From an uncultured Trichococcus sp. (GTDB lineage Bacteria > Bacillota > Bacilli > Lactobacillales > Aerococcaceae): DNA of 64,000 nucleotides. Shown one piece after another: positions 2,124-26,514 of the stretch. The notes below the pieces were generated by a model. The model saw nothing but the letters and a program-made list of their open reading frames with translations, did no database searches and had not been told where the DNA came from. The stretch covers positions 1,195,168 to 1,259,167 of the forward strand of contig NZ_OY764015.1 of NCBI RefSeq assembly GCF_963667775.1, given 5' to 3'. The translations under genes were made by a program, and so were the position numbers. Each line of letters starts with the position of its first letter. The first letter of the stretch is position 1.

Positions 2124-2161
2124 AAACTTGTAAGCGATACTAGTTTAGAGGAGTGGTTAAT

Positions 2162-2632
2162 ATGTTTCAAGAGTATAAGAAGATTTTGATACCGGTTGAC
2201 GGATCCAGAGAATCAGAATTATCCTTCCGTAAAGCAGTGGAAGTAGCCAAACGGAACAAAGCAGCCATCATCATCACTCATATTATAGATACAAGAGCCA
2301 TCCAGACCCCTACAGGCTTTGAAGGCAGTTTTACGGATGAAATCGTCCGCCAATCCAAAACATTGATGGAAGAATACAAAACTTATGCTACGAATGAAGG
2401 CATAACCGATGTTCATACCGTCGTCGAATATGGATCTCCGAAGGCCATCATAGCAAAAGATTTGCCTGCCGAATACGGTGTGGATCTGATCATGATCGGT
2501 GCGACCGGCCTTAATGCCGTCGAGCGGCTGTTCATCGGCTCTGTATCCGAGTACGTCATCCGCAATGCACCTTGCGATGTGCTGGTCGTCCGGACCGACC
2601 TCGAGAACAAACCCAAAGCTAAGAAAAGCTGA
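2162..2632 (+). CDS. Universal stress protein, UspA family
   Basis: A 156-residue cytoplasmic UspA-domain protein. The ATP-binding signature G-2X-G-9X-G-S is complete near residues 113-127 (GATG ... GS), so it is of the nucleotide-binding class. The N-terminal strand ILIPVDGS is typical. The ATG at 2162 is preferred over a GTG at 2153 because the GAGGAG site (2148-2153) would overlap the latter. Its TGA stop lies inside the left end of structured repeat copy A, so the transcript runs into the repeat. The physiological role is inferred from the family (stress, stationary phase). Confidence 0.93.
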   Translation: MFQEYKKILIPVDGSRESELSFRKAVEVAKRNKAAIIITHIIDTRAIQTPTGFEGSFTDEIVRQSKTLMEEYKTYATNEGITDVHTVVEYGSPKAIIAKDLPAEYGVDLIMIGATGLNAVERLFIGSVSEYVIRNAPCDVLVVRTDLENKPKAKKS

Positions 2633-3065
2633 ACGGGTTCGTTCAGCCCTGATTAAGGAAACACTGTGACCTAATCGGTCAAGTACTCTGATGTCACAGT
2701 GCGACATCAGAGGGCCTCACTACGAAATCAGTTGGATGGCCTGATGACAGGATTAAGCGATTGAAATCGCAAGAGTCATGACAATTTAGGAAATCTGTCC
2801 TCGCAACGTTCCCTACGGTCACCTTGTACTGGGGCTCTAAAGGATGAATCCCTAAGAGTCCCATGCAACTGAGCATCGAAGAGCGCAATTGCTGAGAGAC
2901 TTCCGAAACAAAAGGAATCAACGTGACCGTACCGGTCAGTTGTATCATGTTTCTAAGCCATCAAAAATGGCAAGAACCATGACAAGTCGAACAGTATGTC
3001 TTGGCTCGCAGAGACAAGAGGTTCCTTATTCTTTTTTCCGAAGGGCTAACCCGTGAAGCTGGCCA
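2626..3065 (+). repeat. Structured repeat, long copy (A)
   Basis: This fills the convergent gap between usp and ackA; no gene is seen. The ends are inverted: ACGGGTT (2633-2639) with AACCCGT (3048-3054), then AGCCCT (2645-2650) with AGGGCT (3042-3047), then TAAGGAA (2654-2660) with TTCCTTA (3022-3028). The interior is dense in hairpins: 2686-2712 (ten-base perfect stem), the GCGAT/ATCGC hairpin near 2756-2769, 2831-2862, GACCG/CGGTC near 2924-2936, and GCCAT/ATGGC near 2958-2972. The ends, the block AATTTAGGAAATCTG (2783-2797) and the 20-base motif TGAGCATCGAAGAGCGCAAT (2870-2889) recur in the 125-bp copy B at 26358-26483. It could be a non-autonomous mobile hairpin or a structured RNA. Confidence 0.75.
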
Positions 3066-3082
3066 TCAAATTTGATGGCATG

Positions 3083-6509: not shown

Positions 6510-6612
6510 CTGCACCTCCTTATTTTACTTAGACTCGCCAAACGGAGTGCCCTTGCAGGTCTCATGACTCCTATCCGTGCGGTTGTAGCTGTGGTGCGCA
6601 CATTTACAACAT
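6510..6612 (-). ncRNA. L21-type ribosomal protein leader
   Basis: This is the transcribed leader between the rplU promoter and gene. It contains GC-rich complementary blocks: AGTCATGAG, GGAGTCATG/AACGGAGTGCC and a GCGCACCACAGC stem region. Firmicute rplU genes normally carry an L21 leader bound by L21 itself. The assignment rests on position and structure; no covariance check was possible. Confidence 0.5.
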
Positions 6613-11126: not shown

Positions 11127-11375
11127 AAAAGCCCTCTAACTTTCTCCTGAAAGTTAAAGGACGATTGAAGTCGTGGTTCCACCTTTTTTTGCGGCATCTT
11201 CACAGAAACCGCCTCATAACGTTCCGTTTGAAACGTCAGTGCTGTAACGGGCACAACCGAGTCAACCTACTGAGAAAGCGGATGCTGTCTTTTCGGGATC
11301 CTTGCTCAGAGATGTGATTTCACTGATTGCTATTGTCTGCTCACACCACCCGCAAACTCTCTGGAAATAGTCAAA
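11127..11375 (-). promoter_or_regulatory. T-box riboswitch, probable histidine specifier
   Basis: This is the leader of the amino-acid ABC operon. The T-box core AAGGTGGAACCACG (11172-11185) is followed by the terminator stem at 11132-11160 and a T-run. Stem I begins AGAGAGTTTGCGGGTGGTG (11343-11362, minus strand). In other T-boxes the specifier sits just before A-5N-GAGC, giving GGC in glyQS as I recall it and GTA in the valS leader of this window. Here that position reads CAC (11314-11316), a His codon. Overlapping alternatives ATC (Ile) and TCA (Ser) fit the spacing less well. The promoter is at 11415-11442. Confidence 0.85.
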
Positions 11376-11414
11376 AGTTACTTTTTCTCTTCATTGCATT
11401 TAGAATTTAAGACA

Positions 11415-20120: not shown

Positions 20121-20345
20121 AAAAAAAACGCCCTGCATACGAATATGCAGGACGATATGAATCGCGGTACCACCTAAATTACAGGGAACGGATCCCTGTC
20201 TCTCTTTTTGATAACGGAGCATACTCCGAGCCGCGCTACCCAGTCCGCAGACCTTCACACAACTTGCTCACAAGCTACTTCACTTTCCTTCCCCAAAAAA
20301 GCTTTCACCAATCGCTTTTCTCTCTTGTGTGGTTCCGGACAAGCT
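20121..20345 (-). promoter_or_regulatory. T-box riboswitch, valine specifier, for valS
   Basis: The T-box core GGTGGTACCGCGA (about 20163-20175 on the minus strand) precedes terminator stem CCTGCATA/TATGCAGG (20132-20150) and an eight-base T-run (20121-20128). The specifier in the stem I internal loop reads GTA (20276-20278, minus strand), preceded by GAA and followed by CTTGTGAGC. It matches the gene it controls, which validates the reading frame used for the His T-box. Confidence 0.92.
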
Positions 20346-20380
20346 ACTCTTCTTGATCGACGCTTTATTTATTCTTCACT

Positions 20381-26352: not shown

Positions 26353-26357
26353 TACAG

Positions 26358-26483
26358 GAAAAGCGGAACGGGTTCGTTCAGCCCTGAAAGAAATTTAGGA
26401 AATCTGGCCCTGAATGAGCATCGCAGAGCGCAATGGGTCAGATTTATCTAATTTCCGAAGGGCTAACCCGTGAAGCTAGCCAA
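26358..26483 (+). repeat. Structured repeat, short copy (B)
   Basis: About 125 bases fold into one long hairpin. The basal arms are ACGGGTT and AGCCCT against AGGGCT and AACCCGT. The mid-stem is AAATTTAGGAAATCTG...CCC (26391-26410) against GGGTCAGATTTATCTAATTT (26435-26454). The apical loop carries TGAGCATCGCAGAGCGCAAT (26415-26434), identical but for one base to 2870-2889 of copy A. The left boundary GAAAAGC-GAACGGGTTCG and right boundary TCCGAAGGGCTAACCCGTG are shared with copy A. Like copy A it sits downstream of a plus-strand gene and faces a convergent gene's terminator. Confidence 0.8.
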
Positions 26484-26514
26484 CGTTTTGGATGCTCAAA
26501 ATATTTTTCAAGCC

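Follow-up and report, generated by a model that had tools for sequence, protein, structure and literature searches.

Two related sequences in a 64,000-nucleotide stretch of a Trichococcus genome (hereafter the window), one behind usp and the other behind rpsD, raise the question of what kind of element they represent. A sequence-only reading had described them as a two-copy family with inverted, fold-back ends and a conserved 20-base loop motif, fitting no named family and possibly being a non-autonomous mobile hairpin or a new structured RNA. Direct comparison of the two copies, A and B, confirmed that they share their ends and inner blocks, the latter being AATTTAGGAAATCTG and TGAGCATCG[A/C]AGAGCGCAAT. 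The fold-back of the ends was also confirmed, and both folds far surpass their shuffled counterparts: the RNA fold of copy B showed an energy of -49.6 kcal/mol (shuffled mean -31.5, z -4.7) and that of copy A -156 kcal/mol (shuffled mean -120.9, z -6.0).

Copy B is a minimal element located at positions 26357..26484 of the plus strand, with a core of 113 nt, a cap hairpin at 26415..26434 (+) and a shortened 3' tail at 26485..26514 (+) that is not present at the empty site. Copy A, a long element located at 2621..3067 (+) with a core of 431 nt and terminal sequences AAGAAAAGC and GGCCATC, follows the plan of copy B with modules X, 1 and long 2 inserted, one module substituting for the core 3' strand. 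Its 5'-end hairpin, GCTGAACG-GGTT-CGTTCAGC (2628..2647), is terminator-like on the minus strand, where TTTTCTT comes next. On the plus strand there follow module X (CACTGT-stem-AAGT...CATGAC, 2653..2784) with an additional nested hairpin at 2686-2712, the core 5' strand AATTTAGGAAATCTGTCC (2783..2800), module 1 of about 66 nt including CGTTCCCTACGGTCACCTTGTACTGGGG (2801..2868), the cap hairpin (2870..2889), the long form of module 2 (2890..3035) with a module X-like insert at about 2905-2989, and the core 3' end TTTCCGAAGGGCTAACCCGTGAAGCT (3036..3060), whose pairing partner is the 5' end. The 3' part of module 2 occupies the position held by the core 3' strand in the short form. The usp gene (2153..2632, +) ends within copy A, and its final codons and stop (AAG AAA AGC TGA) are supplied by the element.

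The cap hairpin corresponds to the 20 bases that had been called a conserved loop. Genus members and part of the relatives keep this motif, whereas other relatives have different hairpins in its place, and its form is that of a hairpin, UGAGC/GCGCA with an A.G mismatch, not of a plain loop.

The count of two copies holds for the window only. A BLAST search with copy B as query returned 58 pieces in the same genome, and R1, a covariance model based on 50 copies of the short form, gave 40 matches; copy B itself scored 150 bits against this model, although it was among the building sequences. R1 matches occurred in 13/13 genomes searched within the genus, with 8 to 51 per genome, and named records carrying the 20-mer were mostly Trichococcus among the matches listed. 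The existence of only these two copies, named earlier as a refuting condition, is contradicted by these counts. Under stricter filters, the order sample showed R1 matches in 77 of 295 genomes, including 5 of the own genus, and in 20 of 74 genera, while the sample of the class Bacilli gave 41 matching genomes out of 398, 31 of the 41 lying outside the order. All 22 genomes of one Enterococcaceae genus (g34) carried the element, with 3 to 130 matches each, and head-to-tail arrays with neighbouring matches spaced about 122 nt apart were found in several genera. Family names for the relatives' genomes are inferred, one group (f3) being placed via DHFR similarity. Two records, L122 (Pontiella) and L150 (Coriobacteriia), were excluded from later counts by record title, and three 20-mer occurrences, at L071 (Paucibacter), L088 (Bacteroidaceae) and the viral contig L151, were rejected as chance, the remaining element parts being missing.

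In the plasmid collection, 11 E. faecium plasmids carried one copy each in the same stretch, and no match was found to the copies from loci L215, L192, L209 and L309; the phage collection gave no match to copy A or copy B. Two further plasmid matches, H23 (E. faecalis) and H24 (E. casseliflavus), were partial and had sequence in common with the E. faecium stretch only rightward from inside the element. Genomes that we guess to be Streptococcus-like (f4 g20, L216-L227) held between 1 and 21 matches, whose ends differ (AAGATAC...GTTCAAT); some of these matches adjoin what may be the start of a dnaJ-like gene.

The short form of about 120 nt is a single long hairpin, and its conservation was evaluated on two alignments: A2, with 68 order-wide matches (64 distinct rows, 4 of those weak or antisense), and A4, whose 28 rows include 22 from loci beyond the order. 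These were chosen because MAFFT misplaces a 2-nt inner-stem difference in alignment A1; both were fitted to the model and are thus biased toward its structure. In A2, double-sided changes occurred in 36/36 pairs and affected 495 cells, where shuffles gave 119.6, and 96.4% of cells were paired compared with 71.5% after shuffling and 49-55% after a one-column slide of the partners. A4 likewise showed double-sided change in 36/36 pairs, with 95.6% of cells paired. Compensatory change in the stems, whose absence the sequence-only reading had named as refuting, was thus found at all 36 pairs and also in module X. Over 35 pairs (A2 minus the four weak rows, one core pair set aside) G.U exceeded A.C by 38 to 12, an excess that makes the single-stranded plus strand the likelier folding form; one core pair was G.U in 52/60 rows of A2 without the weak rows. 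Unpaired parts recurred at the 5' end (GAAAAGC), at the 3' end (AGCTAGACA) and in a CGTTC bulge, with deviations in the Streptococcus-like rows.

The modular layout of copy A recurred throughout a Trichococcus set of 139 copies, made up of 36 from the own genome and 103 from named records, with orthologues included and the copies therefore not independent. Core lengths (n=118 copies) rose in steps of 111-113, 171-177, 237-248, 308-311, 373-376, 430-431 and 466 nt, with an outlier of 148, the steps reflecting which of the fixed slots are occupied by discrete modules. Module coding returned 72 minimal copies, 17 with module 1, 14 with modules 1 and 2 and 10 with module 2; the other 26 carried module X, long module 2 or both, with the exception of L099, which is minimal. 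The real combinations number about 13, since the 18 scripted codes include false X calls (L099, L154, L091). In one copy of the own genome (L163, ~2596600), which has no cap hairpin, the related parts of modules X and 2 are apparently joined, as recombination between them would give.

The modules also occur outside the genus. With the interior of copy A as query and an E threshold of 0.01, 21 of the 295 genomes showed module pieces, a count that includes the own genus and chance coding hits; the matches in L315 to L320 lay inside apparent coding sequence and were set aside by eye. Genome G037 contained the element plan itself with modules, and module X was found within other scaffolds in genomes G013, G099 and G076, its 3' hairpin also in G130. 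The module X form that lacks the nested hairpin covaries as a domain and is found in other scaffolds too: in an alignment of 15 copies, which included 4 from other genera, 98.7% of cells were paired and 7/21 pairs showed double-sided change. Of the five measures, 36/500 shuffles reached one and 0 reached any of the other four. A 28-nt segment of module 1 recurred in three g34 genomes, where it sits between what we take from the reading frames to be uvrB and uvrA, and at 4 places in one E. faecalis-like genome (E 1.5e-4 to 3.4e-3). The DHFR of the latter genome is 100% identical to PDB chain 4m7v, presumably from E. faecalis.

Comparison of orthologous loci showed that the element moves. An empty orthologous site was found among the fetched loci for 21/139 copies, corresponding to about 15 different sites. 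A first scoring had given 24/139, and the pairs L040/L157, L080/L162 and L083/L126 were removed at re-check as shrunken copies, whereas L131/L242 was retained by eye despite its fuzzy pattern. The shrunken copies L157, L162 and L126 retain only parts of the element ends, indicating decay or internal deletion, so that loss of the element also occurs. Target-site changes had been suggested as a check in the usp-ackA and rpsD-DUF1054 gaps, and both gaps indeed contained filled and empty sites. In the usp-ackA gap the insertion seen in the window occurred in the own genome and in G003, and the site was empty in 11/13 genomes, 3 of which carried an independent inverted copy beside ackA. The rpsD gap was filled in 5 genomes out of 12, empty in 6 and rearranged in 1; the core measured 113 nt in the own genome and in G009, and modules were present in G007, G010 and G002, the last with a left junction that may differ. 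As the same flanks around differing interiors were observed at further sites besides rpsD, the comparison points to exchange of module sets in place at one site, for which gene conversion would be a plausible route. In G003 (L257, L260) the DNA behind rpsD is replaced by other sequence, and the terminator piece of the rpsD gap matches about 13 kb away, adjoining a long copy.

The element 5' end is AAGAAAAGC, and an A-rich target stretch similar to it lies right of the insertion in the pairs L135/L055, L001/L252 and L035/L052. No fixed target duplication was found among the filled/empty pairs compared; a duplication is a possible reading at L135/L055, where it would measure 10 nt, and at rpsD, and impossible at L153/L052 and L131/L242. 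The stem begins with AGC/GCT inside unpaired AAGAAA and TAGACA, leaving the outermost bases unpaired, and an additional 3' tail of about 95 nt, found in 81/139 copies, puts the 3' end of the insertion outside the stem. At usp, a hairpin of the gap was missing at the filled site L235 (the L244 contig starts inside the element) and equally at the empty sites L237 and L243. The left gene was co-directional for 83/138 intergenic copies, and in 68 of these 83 the element started between -10 and +16 nt from the stop codon; these counts are approximate because the ORF caller is crude, an antisense ORF having hidden usp at copy A. The location directly behind a plus-strand gene, noted earlier for usp and rpsD, thus reflects a wider tendency. 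The convergent gene that both copies face is instead particular to a part of the family, being found for 40 of the 138 intergenic copies.

On the minus strand the 5' end reads as a hairpin with TTTTCTT behind it, and 120/139 copies scored as terminator-like under a simple threshold (MFE of -6 or below, five or more T among 9), with a mean hairpin MFE of -9.7 against -4.05 in shuffles; at the plus-strand 3' end, 0/139 copies had such a T-run. Intrinsic termination is therefore predicted for the minus strand only. At the 16 loci looked at in other genera, the T-run was partly kept and the stem varied, being weak in several of these genera. The local 5' hairpin and the long-range outer stem share bases and are thus mutually exclusive, and a switch between the two is possible. 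Isolated 5' hairpins, in which GAAAAGC or GAAATGC precedes a GCTGAACG-type hairpin, were observed directly downstream of full copies at L070, L090, L100, L117 and L140; with the rest of the element missing, they look like stand-alone minus-strand terminators.

The minus-strand 5' ends would be accounted for if the copies were ordinary intrinsic terminators that resemble each other by chance. This explanation is highly improbable, as it leaves the tail unexplained, is contradicted by the empty sites and the modules, and does not agree with the lack of a plus-strand T-run in all 139 copies. A classical MITE, i.e. a deletion derivative of a DDE-transposase insertion sequence mobilised in trans via its terminal inverted repeats, would be consistent with many intergenic copies, empty sites, partly inverted core ends and no coding capacity seen. 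However, according to the portion of PMC3733652 available, MITEs have terminal inverted repeats of 15-30 bp, whereas the outer ends of the Trichococcus repeat are unpaired, most of the 3' tail lies outside the hairpin and the target duplication is inconsistent. The sequence also drifts while its pairing persists, and no parent element occurred at the loci checked: nine 5' ends in L001-L150 lacked a partner, and for 8 of them the locus contained no 3' end downstream, the ninth crossing an assembly gap (L126 being an N gap and L139 a truncated copy), and no transposase or element-encoded protein was found at those followed. We therefore consider a MITE origin unlikely. More credit is due to the view that the repeat is a functional RNA with a regulatory or protein-binding role, its spread being a by-product and its modules being RNA domains with ligands of their own, since compensatory change affects both the core and module X, module X and the 28-nt segment of module 1 are conserved in other scaffolds or genera, and G.U exceeds A.C on the plus strand. 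Neighbouring genes, however, are oriented in all ways (+E+ 42, +E- 40, -E- 35, -E+ 19), and a promoter scan of copy A remained at chance level (1 vs 1.3 expected), making this account rather doubtful.

Named repeat families offer a further alternative. No Rfam family matched copy A or B, the only matches being weak, far below gathering score and with E up to 5, in agreement with the earlier statement that no named family fits; the sole Rfam match over any element was BsrG (RF01412; L334:1367-1742, in a genome outside the order), a longer RNA locus enclosing the element. In the parts of the literature covered by the search, no description of this repeat was recognised. EFAR elements of Enterococcus are variable assemblies of sequence types, 42-650 bp in length, which insert into stem-loops with loss of the stem-loop. 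In the available portions of the sources, EFAR is listed among the MITEs of enterococci (PMC3733652), Efa-1 is described as a pair of stem-loops of 163 nt in 65 copies (PMC2267715), and PMC4448216 concerns other RNAs; that Efa-1 and EFAR are the same is our guess. Like the Trichococcus repeat, EFAR/Efa-1 of Enterococcus faecalis is intergenic, of high copy number and of predicted structure (PMC3733652 and PMC2267715, as far as available). The E. faecalis-like genome shares the module 1 segment, but R1, the model of the core hairpin, gave no significant match there (best E 0.58, in this single genome and with limited sensitivity). Identity with EFAR in the strict sense is thus possible at best, and the repeat is called EFAR-like in kind, EFAR being its closest named relative, with a tentative kinship. 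BOX elements of Streptococcus pneumoniae, which are modular, are similar by description in being dispersed, structured and variable in length through their modules, and MITEs of the bcr1 (Bacillus cereus), RUP, ERIC and NEMIS type are likewise intergenic non-coding mobile repeats; MITEs are reported in PMC3733652 to be transcribed and, through their folding, to affect neighbouring genes. REP/BIME palindromes also place a hairpin after a fixed short sequence, but REP measures 20-40 nt (PMC3733652, portion available) versus about 120 nt here, and in alignments inspected by eye neither GTAG nor CGTC tagged the ends, which are GAAAAGC and AGCTRGMCA.

Taken together, copies A and B are probably members of a dispersed, non-autonomous, modular and structured mobile repeat with a long hairpin formed by the plus strand. 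Both options of the sequence-only reading, mobile hairpin and structured RNA, accordingly hold, given the empty sites for 21/139 copies and the compensatory change in 36/36 pairs. For such a repeat, a host or mobile enzyme would recognise the structured plus strand, either as RNA or as single-stranded DNA, and insertion would occur adjoining A-rich stretches, often just after stop codons or before terminator hairpins; later, modules would be gained, lost and swapped through recombination between copies. Once placed, the element is predicted to serve both strands, the plus strand as a 3'-UTR structure and the minus strand as an intrinsic terminator, a double role that would make intergenic insertions tolerable. 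More tentatively, the repeat might belong to a superfamily of modular mobile RNAs extending across the class Bacilli, with a conserved hairpin scaffold, fixed slots and independently evolving RNA domains that also occur in other scaffolds and are swapped in place; insertion would proceed via the folded plus strand by a new, non-DDE mechanism.

Bacterial non-coding repeats are usually catalogued species by species, whereas here one scaffold connects repeats across Bacilli, and the scaffold-and-module design and its class-wide reach are the surprising parts. The family lends itself to studying by what means a gene-free structured element moves, why its fold is conserved and whether its modules bind anything, and the model and alignments would allow immediate annotation of other genomes. 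The element also alters gene ends, as exemplified in the own genome by the stop codon of usp. Upstream of usp the window contains a 6S RNA (RF00013, 1458-1647, +), and two T-box leaders (11154-11403 and 20145-20369, both -) and one L21 leader (6521-6594, -) were observed further along.
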